DNA from: an uncultured Treponema sp.
GTDB taxonomy: Bacteria > Spirochaetota > Spirochaetia > Treponematales > Treponemataceae
DNA: 64,000 bases
Direction: 5' to 3'
Assembly: GCA_946410085.1 (NCBI GenBank)
Contig: CAMJZA010000011.1
Span: forward strand, 1 to 64,000
Part shown: one piece after another, positions 1-33,065 of the stretch
Position numbering within the stretch: position 1 is the stretch's first letter
Layout: every line of letters starts with the position of its first letter
Notes under the pieces: generated by a model
The model's input: only the letters and a program-made list of their open reading frames with translations
Told to the model about the DNA's origin: nothing
Databases searched by the model: none
Position numbers and translations under genes: made by a program

Positions 1-54
1 TTCTCTTCTCTTCTCTTCTCTTCTCTTCTCTTCTCTTCTCTTCTCTTCTCTTCT
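1..54 (+). repeat. TTCTC pentanucleotide array inside a signal peptide
   Basis: Ten complete TTCTC units plus a four-base partial unit end at position 54. The array may continue left of the window. It is read in frame by the following lipoprotein gene as repeating Phe-Ser-Ser-Leu-Leu, which is the hydrophobic core of its signal peptide. The unit is five bases, so gain or loss of one copy shifts the frame. The two other frames stop at once: TGA at 54-56 and TAA at 85-87. The same pentamer (CTCTT in another phase) sits at the same place in neisserial opa genes. Confidence 0.93.
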
Positions 55-1942
55 GATACTCTGTTCACTAGGCTTTACTGCCTGTAACGGTAACGGCGGT
101 GCGCATGACAGCGGAGGGGCAGCCTATGTTCCGGGCGGCGGCGGCTCCGGTTCAAGCGGAACTGGCGGGTCGGTCACCGGCAGCGGCTCCACGGATACAG
201 GCATGGGCACAATTTCCGCCGAAGAGCTGCGCAATCTGGCAAACGGCGGCTGGGCGGATTCTATTAAGGCGCTCTTCCCGACGGGCGAAGACGAGACGAC
301 AAAAACTTTCTTCCTGAACCTGCCCGCCGAAGGCTTCGGTGTGCCGGATGACGGATATATGGTCCTTCTCATCGACAGCGACGGATTCTCCGCCGGCATC
401 GGAACGCACTGGGAGGCTACCCGGTATGTTTCCGGCGACATTATCAGCTTTACCGACATCCCCATGATGCGGGTCGGTTCCAGCGTGACGGTGACCGTCC
501 TCTGCTATACGGCGGACGGCATCCTCATCAGCTCAGGTTTCAGCAGCGGTACGGCGAGGGACGGTGGCGTTCCGATGGAAATCGGCATCATCGGTTCCGC
601 GCGGATCGTCCTCGGTTCCAACAGTGCCCCGAACGGCAATACGACCGAACAGGTCGGCACGGTGTACGACGTCATCGAATATGCGGGAACGGGCCTTCAG
701 ATGGCAGCCGTCAATCCGAACACGGGTGCAGTGATGAAAGTGACGGTAAACGGAACGCTTGTCAGCACGACGACGGAAAGCTCCGTGACCGCCCCTCTTT
801 CCGACGGCTACAATACCATAGCGCTCACGGTGACGAAGGGGGACAATACCCCGGTCGTGACGACGCGGCACATCTACGTCGTCAAGAAGCTTGTCAAGCC
901 GGTGATAACGATGTCCGGCGCGACGGCGAACGACAAGACGCTGGCATCCGGCGGCAAGAGCTATCAGGTCATCGAGTATACGGGAACAAAACCAAAGGTG
1001 ACCATAACAAACAGCTATGACGGCAGCAGCGCAAGCTATGAGGCAAAGCTGGGGACCACAGTCTTAAGCACTGCCTGCCCGTCCACTATTACGAATCAGG
1101 AGCTTTCCGACGGTTTCAATGCGGTTACCGCGACGCTGAGCGAGCCCTACTGCGACACACTCACGGACGAGAAGTACTACTACGTCGTCAAGGCACTGAC
1201 CGAGGACGACGTTTCGATTACGCCCTCCGACTACAGCACTGCAGCGATTGAAGGCGACTACGAGGTCCTGTACTTCAGCTATCTTGCCGACCCGCTTACC
1301 ATGCCCAATCTGTCGGTCGGCAACGAATATACGGGCGATGCCACGACGCCCGAGCTGGGCGACTCCTATCTGGAGATTACCGTCACGGGCGATACGACCG
1401 TCGCAGAGACTTCCAGCCTGAGCGGTCAGGAGCTGAACCTCGGCGACTGTACCGTGAGCGTCAGCCTCTGCAAGCCCAAGTGTACCCCCGTCTCGGTCGA
1501 AAAGAAGCTCCGCGTCAAGATGAAGCCGGTCACGGTGTCCATGTCTTCCATAACCCTCGATTATGATACGAAAGACTTCCATAGGTGGGTAACTCAGAGC
1601 AGCTATGTACAGGCTAGCAACGCTGACGGTACGGATTCCACCCAAAAGACGGTCTATGCGATGAATCACGTACAGTATGGTGCTGATGGATGGACTCCGG
1701 TAAAGACAGTATCCGTCTCTGCCGTCCTTACGGCACCGGACAGCTCATTCAGGTTCTGGACAACTGAAGGTATTTTTACGTATGACGACAACCCGGGAGA
1801 AAAACCTACGTCAGTCGGGTCCTACGACAGGCCCTGGACTTTGGACGATTTGCGGGATACAGCGAACAGGTCGGTGGACCAATACGTCGGCGTCTCCAAA
1901 GCTGCGAGCCGGTATACCTTTACTCTGAACGTGACCGACTGA
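2..1942 (+). CDS. Surface lipoprotein with Ig-like repeats, predicted phase-variable (5' end outside window)
   Basis: The reading frame is open from the window edge to TGA at 1940-1942, giving at least 646 codons; the start lies upstream. The first visible residues are repeated FSSLL blocks, then ILCSLGFTAC, a spirochaete-style lipobox with its Cys codon at 83-85. A Gly/Ser-rich linker of about 40 residues follows. The body is mostly beta-rich: two clearly related modules of about 110 residues (each with a VIEYxGT strand, an LSDGYN or LSDGFN turn and a YVVK exit strand), a third more divergent one, and an unrelated C-terminal domain. I recognise no enzyme motif. The likely role is an exported, lipid-anchored surface or adhesin-like protein whose translation depends on the repeat number in its signal peptide. 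Outer-surface location is inferred; the signal peptide and modules are seen. Confidence 0.88.
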   Translation, partial: SLLFSSLLFSSLLFSSLLILCSLGFTACNGNGGAHDSGGAAYVPGGGGSGSSGTGGSVTGSGSTDTGMGTISAEELRNLANGGWADSIKALFPTGEDETTKTFFLNLPAEGFGVPDDGYMVLLIDSDGFSAGIGTHWEATRYVSGDIISFTDIPMMRVGSSVTVTVLCYTADGILISSGFSSGTARDGGVPMEIGIIGSARIVLGSNSAPNGNTTEQVGTVYDVIEYAGTGLQMAAVNPNTGAVMKVTVNGTLVSTTTESSVTAPLSDGYNTIALTVTKGDNTPVVTTRHIYVVKKLVKPVITMSGATANDKTLASGGKSYQVIEYTGTKPKVTITNSYDGSSASYEAKLGTTVLSTACPSTITNQELSDGFNAVTATLSEPYCDTLTDEKYYYVVKALTEDDVSITPSDYSTAAIEGDYEVLYFSYLADPLTMPNLSVGNEYTGDATTPELGDSYLEITVTGDTTVAETSSLSGQELNLGDCTVSVSLCKPKCTPVSVEKKLRVKMKPVTVSMSSITLDYDTKDFHRWVTQSSYVQASNADGTDSTQKTVYAMNHVQYGADGWTPVKTVSVSAVLTAPDSSFRFWTTEGIFTYDDNPGEKPTSVGSYDRPWTLDDLRDTANRSVDQYVGVSKAASRYTFTLNVTD

Positions 1943-2105: not shown

Positions 2106-3179
2106 TCAGCAGGATTTATGTGGTGCATGAGGTGGGTGTTTGCCAGACGGAGGAACTTTTTTCATCCAGAGTATGGCGAGGCTGACCCACTGGCGGACGT
2201 CTTCGTATTCCTCTGCCTTGGTGTGAAAGAACTCGTCCGGTGCACCAGAAAGAGCTGACTTGTCAGCACCAGAGAGAGCAGGCTTGTCAGCGTCGTCCGC
2301 TGCGGGGGTGTCAGGAAACTGCGCTGCAAGTTCGGTCCGGCGCCGTTCGGAAACGTTGACGCCTTTCCCTTCTTTGACGGCCTGAACTGCCCGCCTGACC
2401 TGTTCCATCGTATAGGGCTCGCCGAAGTTCCCCCTGAAGAAATCTTCGGTCGGGACGCTCAGGCCGTGGAAACCGGTCGGGAAGACATAGTGGGCAAAGG
2501 GGACGCCTTTTTCCAGGAGGGCCCGGGCGAACAGATAGCTGTTCTGGACGGGGACCAGGTCGTCCGTCGCCGTCTGCCAGAGGAAGCAGGGCGGGGTTCT
2601 GTCCGTGACGTTCTTTTCCAGCGAAAAGTATGTCAGTTCTTCATCAGACGGATGCTTTCCGATGAGGGCTTCCACGGAGGAAGGGTGCGTGTATGTGCCC
2701 GTCGTAATCACCGGGTAGCAGAGGATGGCCCCGTCAGGCCGGCAGGAGATGCCTGCATACTCCGGGTTCTTGTCCGCTACGTCATCGTGGTGGACGGCAA
2801 GCGTTCCGCAGACGTGGGCGCCCGCAGAAAAGCCGCAGACAAAGATCTTTTTGCCCGGTGCATACGCTTTGGCCCGGGAGCGCACGAAGCGCACGGCGCG
2901 GGCTATGTCTTCAAGCGGCTGCCTCCTGAGCGGTACGGACATCGTAATGTCGGTCGTGTAGGTCAGGACAAAGACGTTCAGCCCCTGCTCATAGAATGCT
3001 TTGGCGACAAGTTCCCCTTCCTGCGGAACGCACATGCAGTAGCCCCCGCCCGGTGCGACAATCAGGCAGTCGTGCGTGCCGTCTTCGTGCAGGTAGGCAT
3101 GGATGTTCGGCACAAAGCCGTAGGCCGCTGCATACGTATATTCACCCGCTTCCCAAATACTCTCACAGAATTGCTTCAT
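2106..3179 (-). CDS. Alpha/beta-hydrolase, acetyl-esterase type
   Basis: The protein has 357 residues. It shows the hallmarks of BD-FAE/Aes-type carbohydrate esterases: an oxyanion-hole segment APGGGY, the nucleophile elbow GFSAGA, a catalytic-Asp segment TDDLVPV and a catalytic His in FHGLS. It probably removes acetyl or acyl groups from sugars or xylan-like oligomers. There is no signal peptide, so it is likely cytoplasmic. The start at 3179 is preferred over the in-frame ATG at 3275 because it follows an AAGGGG ribosome site and a TTGACA-18-TACCCT promoter at 3204-3233, which the longer form would translate through. A tail segment holds two 24-base units (2242-2289) encoding ADKSALSG/ADKPALSG. 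The gene is convergent with the lipoprotein gene. Confidence 0.85.
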   Translation of the reverse strand: MKQFCESIWEAGEYTYAAAYGFVPNIHAYLHEDGTHDCLIVAPGGGYCMCVPQEGELVAKAFYEQGLNVFVLTYTTDITMSVPLRRQPLEDIARAVRFVRSRAKAYAPGKKIFVCGFSAGAHVCGTLAVHHDDVADKNPEYAGISCRPDGAILCYPVITTGTYTHPSSVEALIGKHPSDEELTYFSLEKNVTDRTPPCFLWQTATDDLVPVQNSYLFARALLEKGVPFAHYVFPTGFHGLSVPTEDFFRGNFGEPYTMEQVRRAVQAVKEGKGVNVSERRRTELAAQFPDTPAADDADKPALSGADKSALSGAPDEFFHTKAEEYEDVRQWVSLAILWMKKVPPSGKHPPHAPHKSC

Positions 3180-3203
3180 GCTGTTCGCCCCTTCTTCTGT
3201 TCT

Positions 3204-3265
3204 AGGGTAAAGGGAAATGTGCCCTTCTGTCAAGCTTGACAGGCCGGACGCAAACGCAGTATGAT
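3204..3265. promoter_or_regulatory. Divergent promoter pair sharing a palindrome at the -35 boxes
   Basis: The 16-bp perfect palindrome CTGTCAAGCTTGACAG (3227-3242) contains TTGACA on both strands. To the right, TTGACA (3236-3241), 18 bases, then TATGAT (3260-3265) reads towards the transporter. To the left, TTGACA (complement of 3228-3233), 18 bases, then TACCCT (complement of 3204-3209) reads towards the esterase. The two polymerase sites overlap back to back, so the promoters should compete, or share one regulator that binds the dyad. Confidence 0.6.
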
Positions 3266-3271
3266 TCTCCC

Positions 3272-3413
3272 GCATTCAAAAGACAGTTCGAAGTCCTTCC
3301 TGTCGTTAAACAAAACCAGGTCAAACGTCATCATAAAAACCACTTTCAGTATTTTTTATGATGACAACGAGCTGTAAGCCTCTGACGAGACTTACAGCTC
3401 GCAGAATGTTTTT
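3272..3413 (+). promoter_or_regulatory. Long leader with terminator-like hairpin before the queuosine-precursor transporter
   Basis: Transcription from the promoter at 3236-3265 would give about 180 nt of leader before the start at 3455. It contains a perfect 13-bp AT-rich hairpin (arms 3327-3339 and 3353-3365), then a perfect 11-bp hairpin (arms 3368-3378 and 3391-3401) and a T5 run at 3409-3413, which looks like an intrinsic terminator. A small GACAG/CTGTC stem lies upstream near 3284-3306. This is the layout of an attenuator or riboswitch. I could not match it to the preQ1 riboswitch consensus sequences I know. Confidence 0.5.
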
Positions 3414-4247: not shown

Positions 4248-5795
4248 ATGGTGCATGTTCCGGTAAAGGTCAAGCTGCCCTTCCTGTGGGGGAGGGCGGT
4301 TTTCAGGAAGGATGAGTGGCGAAACATCAATCTCGTTGTGGGTCCGAACGGGTCGGGAAAGACCCTGCTCGTCGATGCCATTTCCAGGACCTTTGCTGCT
4401 TCCGGTTACAGCATCAAGTTCTTCCGTTCCGACCGGCGGGAGGATCGGGAAGCGCTTGCAATCGTGCAGGGCAATGAGGCAATCCGCCGGAAGATTCAGG
4501 ACGTGCTTTCGAGCATGTTCGGTAAGACCATCGTGTTCAAGCAGGGGGAGGAGGGAGACTACATCCCCGTCGTGGTGAACCGGGCCTGGAATGTCGAATA
4601 CAATCTTGAAGAAGTTGAATGCCACGGCCTGAAGGAAATCATCACCCTGCTTGCCGCCCTCTATGCCAATACGGGCAATACCTGCCTCGTCTTTGACGAG
4701 CCGGAGCTGCACCTGCATCCCCAGTTCCAGCAGTTCTTTGCGGAGGAACTGCGGCGGGTGTCGGAGCGGCATCCCAAGCGCATGTACTTTATCATTACGC
4801 ATTCCCCTTTCTTCATAGACCTGCGTTCCCCGGAGGACCTGTTCGGCGTGCTTGTCTGCCATACGAACCGGGAGCCGACGCACATAGAGTCGCTGGGAAA
4901 GCGGGATGAAGATTTGCTCCGCCGCTTCCTGCCCCGCTTTAACAGCTATCACAAGCAGTTCTTTTTTTCCGATAATCAGATTTTCGTTGAAGGCTATACG
5001 GACCAGCAGATTTTTGCGGGCCTCCTGCCCTACATACATACGGAACGCGGCGTTGCGGGGACGGGAATAATCGACGTCGGCGGCAAGGACGAGCTGGGGG
5101 TGTTCTGCAAGGTCTGTGCCCTGCTCGGTACGAACAGCCGGATTATTACCGACCTTGATTCCCTGTTCGGCGGCAAGCTGCGGGACGTGTTCTGCTCCGA
5201 CGAGCGGGCTGCCCAGTGGCTTGAGCGGCAGCGGGAAAAGCAGCTGCCCTTTTACCGGACTATTTTTACGCAGCGGGAAATGGGAGCGCCGATTACCCTG
5301 GAAAAGCTCATCCTGCGTCTGGAGCGCTATCTGGGCGTCATCGGGCGCTCCCTCTGTACGATGCAGCCTGCCGGTCCGCTGGAAGGTGAGATTGCGCTGC
5401 TGGTGGAAAAGCTTGATGCCCTGGACCAGAAGCATTCCCGGGCAGAAAACGTGGATACCTTCAAGACGGTGGTGCTGCAGGGCGTTATGAGCGAAGGGGC
5501 CTTGCAGGAGCAGCTTGCGGAATACCTGCCTGCCTCAGTTTCCGAAAGCCTCCCGCTGGTCAGGAACCTGTTCAACCTGATTCTTGCCGCCGCATCAGCG
5601 GCAGGGGTGTATGTCTTACCCCTTGGCTGTATTGAACACTACTATACGCAGTCGGCCGTCCGCTACATGCCGGTTGCCGGTAAGGACCGCTGTTTTCATA
5701 TAGAACGGCGGCACCTGCTGCAGGCAGGTCCCGAGCTCATTGCGAAGGAGTATGCAGGGCTCATCTCGTTCCTCGAGGCCGTCTGCACCCGCTAG
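4248..5795 (+). CDS. OLD-like ATPase with C-terminal TOPRIM domain
   Basis: The protein has 515 residues. An N-terminal ABC/SMC-type ATPase carries Walker A GPNGSGKT (32-39), a Walker B segment CLVFDEPELHLHP (146-158) and the following ITHSP switch (near 183). A TOPRIM-like half follows, with the acidic motif VEGYTD (247-252) and DLDS (302-305). This is the architecture of OLD-family nucleases, where ATP binding controls DNA cleavage by the TOPRIM domain. OLD proteins act in DNA repair or phage defence. No UvrD-like GajB partner is adjacent, so it would be a stand-alone form. Translation is probably leaderless. Its stop codon shares the tetranucleotide CTAG (5792-5795) with the stop of the convergent cysteine desulfurase. 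Confidence 0.75.
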   Translation: MVHVPVKVKLPFLWGRAVFRKDEWRNINLVVGPNGSGKTLLVDAISRTFAASGYSIKFFRSDRREDREALAIVQGNEAIRRKIQDVLSSMFGKTIVFKQGEEGDYIPVVVNRAWNVEYNLEEVECHGLKEIITLLAALYANTGNTCLVFDEPELHLHPQFQQFFAEELRRVSERHPKRMYFIITHSPFFIDLRSPEDLFGVLVCHTNREPTHIESLGKRDEDLLRRFLPRFNSYHKQFFFSDNQIFVEGYTDQQIFAGLLPYIHTERGVAGTGIIDVGGKDELGVFCKVCALLGTNSRIITDLDSLFGGKLRDVFCSDERAAQWLERQREKQLPFYRTIFTQREMGAPITLEKLILRLERYLGVIGRSLCTMQPAGPLEGEIALLVEKLDALDQKHSRAENVDTFKTVVLQGVMSEGALQEQLAEYLPASVSESLPLVRNLFNLILAAASAAGVYVLPLGCIEHYYTQSAVRYMPVAGKDRCFHIERRHLLQAGPELIAKEYAGLISFLEAVCTR

Positions 5796-31513: not shown

Positions 31514-31587
31514 ATCCGGCTCCCTGCGTTGTGGAAATTGCCTGATTGTAGCATAAAAGCGGGTCTTTTCCTATACGGCAGGCAACC

Positions 31588-31675
31588 GTTTAAAAACCAG
31601 CTGGAACATGTTTAAAACCAAGCTGGAATTCATTTAAAACCAAGCTGGAATTCATTTAAAACTAAGCCGAAACGG
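31588..31675 (+). repeat. Four 22-bp tandem repeats
   Basis: Four contiguous 22-base units start at 31588, 31610, 31632 and 31654. The consensus is RTTTAAAACCAAGCTGGAAT followed by TC. Units 2 and 3 differ at one base; units 1 and 4 are more diverged. The array fills the spacer between the aminotransferase and the GNAT gene. It has no obvious hairpin. Confidence 0.85.
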
Positions 31676-31765
31676 TGTCGGCGCTCGTTTTGACCTGACG
31701 CCGGCAGTAGCCAAGGGGGTAATTTCGTGGCATACTGGTACGAGTTTGGAAACGCAGGGGGAAGC

Positions 31766-32209
31766 ATGGAATACGAGATTACGGATTATGTGACGGCGGA
31801 AGAGTATATGGAACTGCGAAAACTCGTGGGATGGGGCCTCTTTCCGCTCGAGCAGGCCGCTGAGGGAATCAGTCACACGACACACCTCTGCTGCTTCAGG
31901 AAGGATGGCCTTGCCATCGGACTCCTTCGGGTACTCTGGGACCACGGCTACGTCGTCCACATCGCCGACGTGATTGTCCGTCCGGAATATCAGGGACAGG
32001 GGCTGGGCCGCGCCCTGATGGACCATGCGATGGCATACATCAGGAGCGTGCTGAAGCCCGGCCGGAAAGTCATGGTAAGCCTCATGGCTGCAAAAGGAAA
32101 GGAAGACTTTTACAAAAAATTCGGATTCTTCACACGGCCGGATGAAGCGCATGGCGCAGGCATGTGCCAGTGGATTGAGTGCCCCCCTCCTGCGGGCCCG
32201 GCAGAATGA
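31766..32209 (+). CDS. GNAT-family N-acetyltransferase
   Basis: The 147-residue GNAT protein has acetyl-CoA-binding motif A VRPEYQGQGLGRALMDHAM and the C-terminal FYKKFGF segment. The N-terminal TAEEYMELRKLVGW pattern is common in small GNATs of unknown substrate. The start at 31766 follows GGGGGA; a GTG start at 31727 with AAGGGGG is an alternative that adds 13 residues. The stop codon lies inside the first unit of a 22-bp tandem array, so changes in the array edge could alter the C-terminus. It is surrounded by repeat arrays on both sides. Confidence 0.85.
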   Translation: MEYEITDYVTAEEYMELRKLVGWGLFPLEQAAEGISHTTHLCCFRKDGLAIGLLRVLWDHGYVVHIADVIVRPEYQGQGLGRALMDHAMAYIRSVLKPGRKVMVSLMAAKGKEDFYKKFGFFTRPDEAHGAGMCQWIECPPPAGPAE

Positions 32210-32376
32210 TTCAGGCAGTCTTGCAGAATTATTCTGACAGCCTTGCAGAAAGATTCTGACAGCCTTGCAGAATGATTCTGACAGTCTTGCAGAATGATTC
32301 CGACAGTCTTGCAGAATTATTCTGACAGTCTTGCAGAATGATTCTGACAGCCTTGCAGAATGATTCTGACAGCTTA
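32201..32376 (+). repeat. Eight 22-bp tandem repeats overlapping a gene end
   Basis: Eight exact-length units start at 32201, 32223, 32245, 32267, 32289, 32311, 32333 and 32355, with consensus GCAGAATGATTCTGACAGTC followed by TT. The first unit contains the last codons and the TGA of the GNAT gene. The variation is mainly T/C at one site and ATG/TTA/AAG near the front. Two-turn helical spacing makes it a plausible protein-binding array or a VNTR. Confidence 0.95.
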
Positions 32377-33065
32377 TCCGCATGATTGGGATATGCGGGT
32401 GAAGCACTTCCCGTTTGATTGCCGAAATTTTTGCAACAAAGTATTACAAACCGGACGGATTTTTTTTGCTATTCTTTGGGGCACAGGTCGTTGACTGAAC
32501 CAATGTTCAGGGCCTGTACGTCAGGCAGGGTACTGTCTGTTACCCTTGCCGTCTGTTTTAACAGTCCATATTTTTAGGTGCTGCCTGCCCGTGATGCACG
32601 TTAGGTGCGCGGATGGGGCGTACCGTCCTTCCTCACCCCGTGCGTGCGGGCATTCATGCGCTACGGAAAGGCCGTTTTTTACGGACCGACTACGGAAGGG
32701 GGATGGTATCGAAAAACTACCAAAGTCTGTATTGAAAATCCGCCAAAGTCTGTATCGAAAAAGTTGACAAACTGCTGTAGGCGATTACGCATATAAACGG
32801 GAAGATGGCATCGTAATAGTGCCTCTTACTTGCCTGGGGAATTAAGAAGTAGCGGTTATGACTATCCCGACGCGGATCTTGCCGGGTTTGTCCCCGTCAT
32901 CGCGAAGGCACGAATCGAGGGCCGGCAGGTCAATCAATGCAAAATTATAAAAATGTGTAAAAACAGGCGGAATTTTATTGCAAAAATGTGTAAAACAACG
33001 TCCGATTCTTTTGCAAAAATGTGTAATTTTTCAAAAAAAACATTGCAAAAGTGTGTAATCGGTGT
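32377..33065. other. Gene-poor spacer with two further short repeat families
   Basis: No convincing gene is seen over about 690 bases. Three 23-base units, the third diverged, lie at 32707-32775 (core CCAAAGTCTGTATYGAAAA). Four TTGCAAAAATGTGTAA-like boxes start at 32945, 32978, 33011 and 33043, spaced 33, 33 and 32 bases, and run up to the promoter of the ATPase gene. Base composition falls from GC-rich to very AT-rich across this strip, marking the left edge of a foreign-looking island. Confidence 0.7.

Follow-up and report, generated by a model that had tools for sequence, protein, structure and literature searches.

A TTCTC array in the signal peptide of a Treponema lipoprotein gene as a probable Opa-like translational switch

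A stretch of 64,000 nucleotides from an uncultured Treponema sp. (positions 1-64000 of contig C11 of the studied genome, G000; referred to as the window) begins within a tandem array of the pentamer TTCTC, which encodes the hydrophobic core (h-region) of a predicted lipoprotein signal peptide. Gene anatomy and comparison with paralogs strongly support translational phase variation by slipped-strand mispairing as the best reading of this element, which would be Opa-like in mechanism and not Opa by descent. We consider it very likely that this genome has at least eight translational contingency loci with the same switch and that the window carries the 3' half of one of them. Contigs of this genome are designated C, loci L, and other genomes G (G076, a sister genome, and G037).

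The window array and the gene behind it

The array is perfect, with a period of 5, and Tandem Repeats Finder (TRF) counted 10.8 copies (Table 1). This number is a minimum for the window array, because the first base of the window is also the first base of the contig, which starts inside the array. The open frame running through it reads SLLFSSLLFSSLLFSSLLILCSLGFTAC, its signal ends in LGFTA|C, and the stop is located at 1940-1942, so that the mature protein comprises about 619 aa. At the motif level, we found the lipoprotein arrangement of a basic n-region leader, (FSSLL)n and LGFTAC, IIFSLGFTAC or similar endings with Cys at +1, from which lipidation of the product is predicted.

A sequence-only reading had described the 10.8 copies as the FSSLL h-region of a lipoprotein signal ending in LGFTAC, with which TRF and translation agree, and had placed stops of the other two frames at 54-56 and 85-87, where TGA and TAA are indeed read directly. 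Its arithmetic of five signal-peptide residues per three copies is likewise correct. Its main proposal, a pentamer frame switch in a lipoprotein h-region that combines the repeat and the site of opa with a spirochaete host and a protein to which we found no Opa relation, held up and turned out to be larger than claimed, as it comprises eight genes with ON and OFF paralogs. In contrast, the statement that the ON state is seen here did not stand, and a reading of the window alone as ON was rejected: the contig is cut within the array, the window contains no start codon for the array frame, and every array can be read without a stop into the coding frame that follows it.

Table 1 Features of the window around the TTCTC array
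Feature	Position	Strand	Basis
(TTCTC)10.8 array, 5' side cut by the contig end; codes cyclic FSSLL, signal-peptide h-region	1-54	+	TRF; contig start coincides with window start
Remaining h-region and lipobox (...ILCSLGFTA)	55-82	+	direct translation
TGT, codon of the predicted lipidated Cys, mature lipoprotein residue 1	83-85	+	lipobox motif; C1 invariant in family alignment
Gly/Ser-rich linker following the lipid anchor; poly-G tracts here in several paralogs	86-205	+	translation, paralog repeats
Conserved N-terminal module, common to 27 paralogs in the genome	83-595	+	profile match G000:C11:83-595, E = 6.7e-53
Lipoprotein open reading frame, 646 aa plus stop, without start codon in the window	2-1942	+	translation
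TGA stop right after the array in one OFF frame	54-56	+	direct reading
TAA stop in the other OFF frame	85-87	+	direct reading
Alpha/beta-hydrolase-like gene	2106-3275	-	adjoins the C115 mutase-like gene in G076

TTCTC arrays and frame states across the genome

The 3.64-Mb assembly (134 contigs) was searched by pattern. TTCTC runs of 20 bp were found on C11, C12, C19, C29, C63, C73, C115, and C130, and lowering the length to 14 bp (about 3 copies) added C70 alone, giving nine contigs in total. These represent at least eight genes with one leader type throughout. Since even the 14-bp runs are limited to nine contigs and one kind of gene, the window array is far beyond chance; a reversed-pattern control is uninformative for TTCTC, as reversing the unit yields one of its own rotations. 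Where the upstream region is visible, the genes share a common plan of promoter-like site, purine-rich ribosome site, ATG, basic leader of 20-41 aa, and array, followed downstream by the rest of the h-region and the lipobox. The promoter-like site reads TTGCAT/C-16-TATACT, and its reversed pattern gave no match; the promoters of C12 and C115 are more divergent, with TATACT kept. Leaders of the same type are also present in C58 and at the start of C31, both cut before the array.

Copy numbers between the paralogs range from 4.8 to 11.8. The gene on C12, whose product is 48% identical to the window protein over 532 aa, has 11.8 copies and is ON, with a mature open reading frame (ORF) of 661 aa. 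The genes on C19 (10.4 copies) and C29 (4.8 copies) are OFF and need one additional copy to be ON, and those on C63 (4.8 copies) and C130 (9.6 copies) are OFF and need one copy less. A ratio of one ON to four OFF among the readable TTCTC paralogs is compatible with the random expectation of one third. C73 resembles C19 up to the C73 contig end and is probably OFF. In all five readable genes, the perfect non-triplet repeat lies near the 5' end of the ORF and after the start codon, as in a contingency locus, and both frame states exist among paralogs with an intact downstream frame; for the window gene, the corresponding start codon would be located on C115. The mature frame behind the OFF array shows no stop over at least 1,048 aa in C29, where the examined stretch ends, and over 1,063 aa in C63. 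As these frames stay stop-free, we read the OFF state of both genes as reversible and not as decay. In the C7 member (L051), a decayed pentamer tract leaves the signal in frame, and a G8 tract in the linker turns the gene OFF. As a separate observation, a G9 tract directly precedes the 11.8-copy array of the C12 gene (L009, 3499-3567), which places two slippage tracts in tandem within the leader of the ON gene.

The missing upstream half of the window gene is very probably found on C115, where promoter, ribosome site, ATG, a leader of 96 nt, and an array follow each other. Only C11, with the downstream half, and C115, with the upstream half, end flush within an array that still shows about 10 copies of TTCTC; the C70 contig end comes after about 3 copies. 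Additionally, the phosphoglycerate-mutase-like gene of C115 adjoins the alpha/beta-hydrolase-like gene of the window in the sister genome G076, with matching orientation. Because of these sole flush ends and the adjacency in G076, C115, the array, and C11 very probably form one gene with the leader MGRNRMYGMTDSRSGQGNRTEGQRAASGGRRG. Frame computation places the joined gene ON at 9.4, 12.4, 15.4 and so on copies. The two ends together need at least 11.4 copies, so that ON would be possible only at 12.4, 15.4 and so on if the join is correct. A start codon upstream of the contig edge, as sought by the sequence-only reading, would be provided by the ATG on C115, in frame at 12.4 or 15.4 copies, but only across the presumed join, and 11.4 copies would leave the gene OFF.

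The codon structure of the repeat suggests how it can serve as an h-region. In a pentamer array, the cyclic set of codons does not depend on which of the three frames is read, and the FSSLL peptide of TTCTC is stop-free and uncharged. By mean hydropathy, TTCTC comes 19th among the 156 pentamers without a stop, and CTATT comes 18th. Because the three frames give the same FSSLL, the array can provide the h-region whatever its copy number, and only the downstream frame moves. This argument leaves the choice of TTCTC over other pentamers unaccounted for.

Proposed mechanism and alternative explanations

In the proposed mechanism, expression from a promoter and a ribosome-binding site would start at an ATG with a basic leader of 20-41 aa, which leads into the TTCTC array as the (FSSLL)n hydrophobic core, the lipobox, and a large modular lipoprotein of surface type. 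Slipped-strand mispairing would add or remove one 5-bp unit and thereby shift the frame after the array. One frame in three would yield the full lipoprotein, and the other two would stop a few to about 20 codons past the array. Several independent switches might then generate different sets of lipoproteins among clonal cells. The surface location of the products is presumed, and the switch may serve to vary antigens or adhesins or to evade phages.

Several points weigh against this interpretation. We infer slippage in cells, and the comparison covers paralogs in one assembly, with one genome per species; the join of C11 and C115 is deduced as described above, and the assembly behind some of the copy numbers is fragmented. 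Moreover, with 20-41 aa preceding the h-region, the leader is long by the standards of lipoprotein signals, and a single-sequence AlphaFold model of the mature protein was uninformative (pLDDT 34). The surface role therefore leans on the domain types of the paralogs, whose C-termini differ and comprise BspA-type LRR_5/DUF285, PKD, and FGE-sulfatase domains. LRR/DUF285, PKD, and FGE-sulfatase are domain types used on bacterial surfaces. The window protein itself matched no Pfam or NCBIfam family and no solved structure by sequence, and no Pfam or NCBIfam match was obtained for the shared N-terminal module. A PDB profile search with this module returned one weak match, the flagellin hook IN motif (E = 0.005), on which we do not rely.

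Among the alternatives, the array could be merely a low-complexity coding of the hydrophobic core, with a copy number that stays constant or shifts at a rate too low for a switch. FSSLL is a plausible h-region, slippage is proposed from a comparison of paralogs, and recent duplication of a leader cassette, as suggested by the similar C19 and C73 leaders, could keep the arrays perfect. However, were hydrophobicity all that is selected for, C19, C29, C63, and C130 would not be expected out of frame, and in paralogs the same zone holds poly-G, which encodes the non-hydrophobic glycine, as well as octamers and heptamers, while the gene bodies lack repeats. We regard this explanation as very unlikely. 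It is more improbable still that the OFF members are pseudogenes and the C12-type gene alone is functional. In the assembly, four of the five TTCTC genes that can be read are OFF, as this would predict, but the long stop-free mature frames of C29 and C63 argue for intact genes, and fewer than one third of the gonococcal opa genes are in frame as well (PMC13183285). The least probable alternative is that the array chiefly tunes the length or strength of the signal peptide, the frame change being a side effect: the observed range of copies would vary the h-region stepwise, yet two of every three copy-number steps change the frame and end translation close to the lipobox, which makes ON/OFF control outweigh any effect on length.

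Repeat turnover and comparison with other systems

The proposed phase variation at this site is further illuminated by the wider family, which was retrieved with a profile built on an alignment of the N-terminal module. The profile identified 27 members in the studied genome and members in 6 of 199 other genomes of the genus, mostly with poly-G; no family member was found in a relatives sample of 58 other genomes. The N-terminal zone contains poly-G in C31, C40, C7, and C28, a CTATT repeat in the C64 paralog, TTGCGGGC/TTGCGGTC octamers in C34, C114, and C104, and a TGCGGAC heptamer in C46. For the repeat kinds tested, 16 genes showed 10 repeats within 5.6 kb of N-terminal zone compared to none within 33 kb of gene body, and the 64-kb window contains no G/C run of at least 8. 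The zone holds a G/C run of at least 8 or a TTCCTTA heptamer array in 27 of 55 loci from six sister species. The turnover of repeat type at one place is our strongest comparative argument for switching as the retained property, with a repeat type that can be exchanged. Since the repeat classes share one zone, birth, unit change, and decay of contingency loci can be read from the paralogs.

Additional repeats were noted alongside these. A family member in G076 (L282, C6) has a 9.6-copy TTCCTTA heptamer (FLIPYSL) just before the signal-peptide start region. Octamer (TTGCGGGC/TTGCGGTC) or heptamer (TGCGGAC) arrays in L209 (C90), at the end of L059 (C64:20958-21005), in L211 (C45), and in L212 (C117) start a few bases after TTGACA...TATAAT/CATAAT promoter-like sites, and candidate downstream halves leading into lipoproteins are found on C34, C114, C104, C46, and C33. 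These arrays might act via the initial transcript, a leaderless start or the frame; the TTG within the octamer could serve as a start in every frame. Beyond the family, G9 tracts in L320 (C22:6800), L324 (C82:5267), L322 (C38:16544), and L321 (C37:25470) are candidates for further contingency loci; their settings are membrane-protein-like frames (acyltransferase-like, flippase-like), another coding frame, and a gap between a promoter-like site and a lipoprotein start.

TTCTC arrays were also sought in GTDB-representative contigs, where at least 116 loci have 5.2 or more copies. A loose positional test for arrays at ORF starts gave a weak result (24 of 117 in sense and 20 of 117 in antisense orientation, against 13% at random), and only a stricter signal-peptide test separated the arrays, with 13 of the 117 listed arrays qualifying compared to 4.1% of random positions (p = 0.001). 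Recurrence of signal-peptide TTCTC arrays across phyla is therefore suggested with moderate support. Like the arrays studied here, these lie in the h-region before a lipobox or signal-peptidase I site and include ON (Alistipes L105) and OFF examples (Saprospirales L133, Coatesbacteria L151, Verrucomicrobiia L100); unlike them, they belong to unrelated mature proteins and mostly to single genes. Among the listed matches, one Endomicrobiellum and one Saprospiraceae genome have two array loci each. Two related secreted proteins of Candidatus Endomicrobiellum incisitermitis (L143, 15.0 copies, OFF; L203, 13.0 copies, ON) appear to be a second instance of a small multigene set, in a different phylum. 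Within the genus, the search proposed by the sequence-only reading revealed unrelated lipoproteins carrying the array in two other species (L069 and L072). L070 (G037) was set aside as unrelated, as its array is antisense to a frame that looks like a response regulator.

Because unrelated signal-peptide proteins carry it, the device seems to have evolved repeatedly. An independent origin in a spirochaete is likely, but the device is found elsewhere too, as unrelated signal-peptide proteins in several phyla carry TTCTC. Three FlaA (PF04620) genes in the genome, compared to none in 14 control genomes, support its assignment to the spirochaetes. Whether stop-free hydrophobic non-triplet repeats (TTCTC as FSSLL, CTATT as LFYSI, TTCCTTA as FLIPYSL) constitute a recurrent, independently evolved signal-peptide switch across phyla, grown here into a large lipoprotein family whose leader-switch cassettes of differing repeat type are swapped or replaced, is a proposal for which we consider the case evenly balanced.

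The textbook pentamer switch in a signal peptide is that of the Neisseria opa genes, and Opa is an eight-stranded outer-membrane beta-barrel cleaved by signal peptidase I. We found no sequence similarity of the window protein to Opa. Neisserial opa genes have CTCTT in the signal-sequence coding region (PMC13183285, PMC3960869), and both pentamer and site are the same here. The opa genes also form a multigene family with one array per separate locus, frame-based ON/OFF states, and several OFF members (PMC13183285, PMC3960869). In contrast to Opa, the product here is a large modular lipoprotein of a different phylum with a lipobox Cys at +1 and a longer basic leader. Among spirochaetes, tpr and tp0126 of Treponema pallidum are surface-protein genes under control of a simple repeat, poly-G (PMC7864442), which sister loci use here; the T. 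pallidum tracts described there act in promoters, whereas the TTCTC array lies within the reading frame and would act on translation. BspA-type leucine-rich-repeat and FGE-sulfatase-domain lipoproteins resemble several paralog C-termini, while the window protein itself matches neither. No report of a pentamer signal-peptide switch in spirochaetes was found among the papers searched. The TTCTC genes would represent a non-neisserial, Opa-like multigene system inside a wider family with different repeat classes in the same zone. Should such spirochaetes display combinatorial variation of a large lipoprotein coat, it would become possible to test immune escape, avoidance of phages, and a change of niche as the reasons.

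Elsewhere in the window, positions 4248-5795 encode an AAA ATPase that weakly resembles the effector ATPases of retron Eco8 and PtuA (NCBIfam E 1e-13, well short of the cut-off). A cluster of imperfect tandem repeats of 22-33 bp is located at 31587-33026, and the GC content is lower at 32-40 kb.
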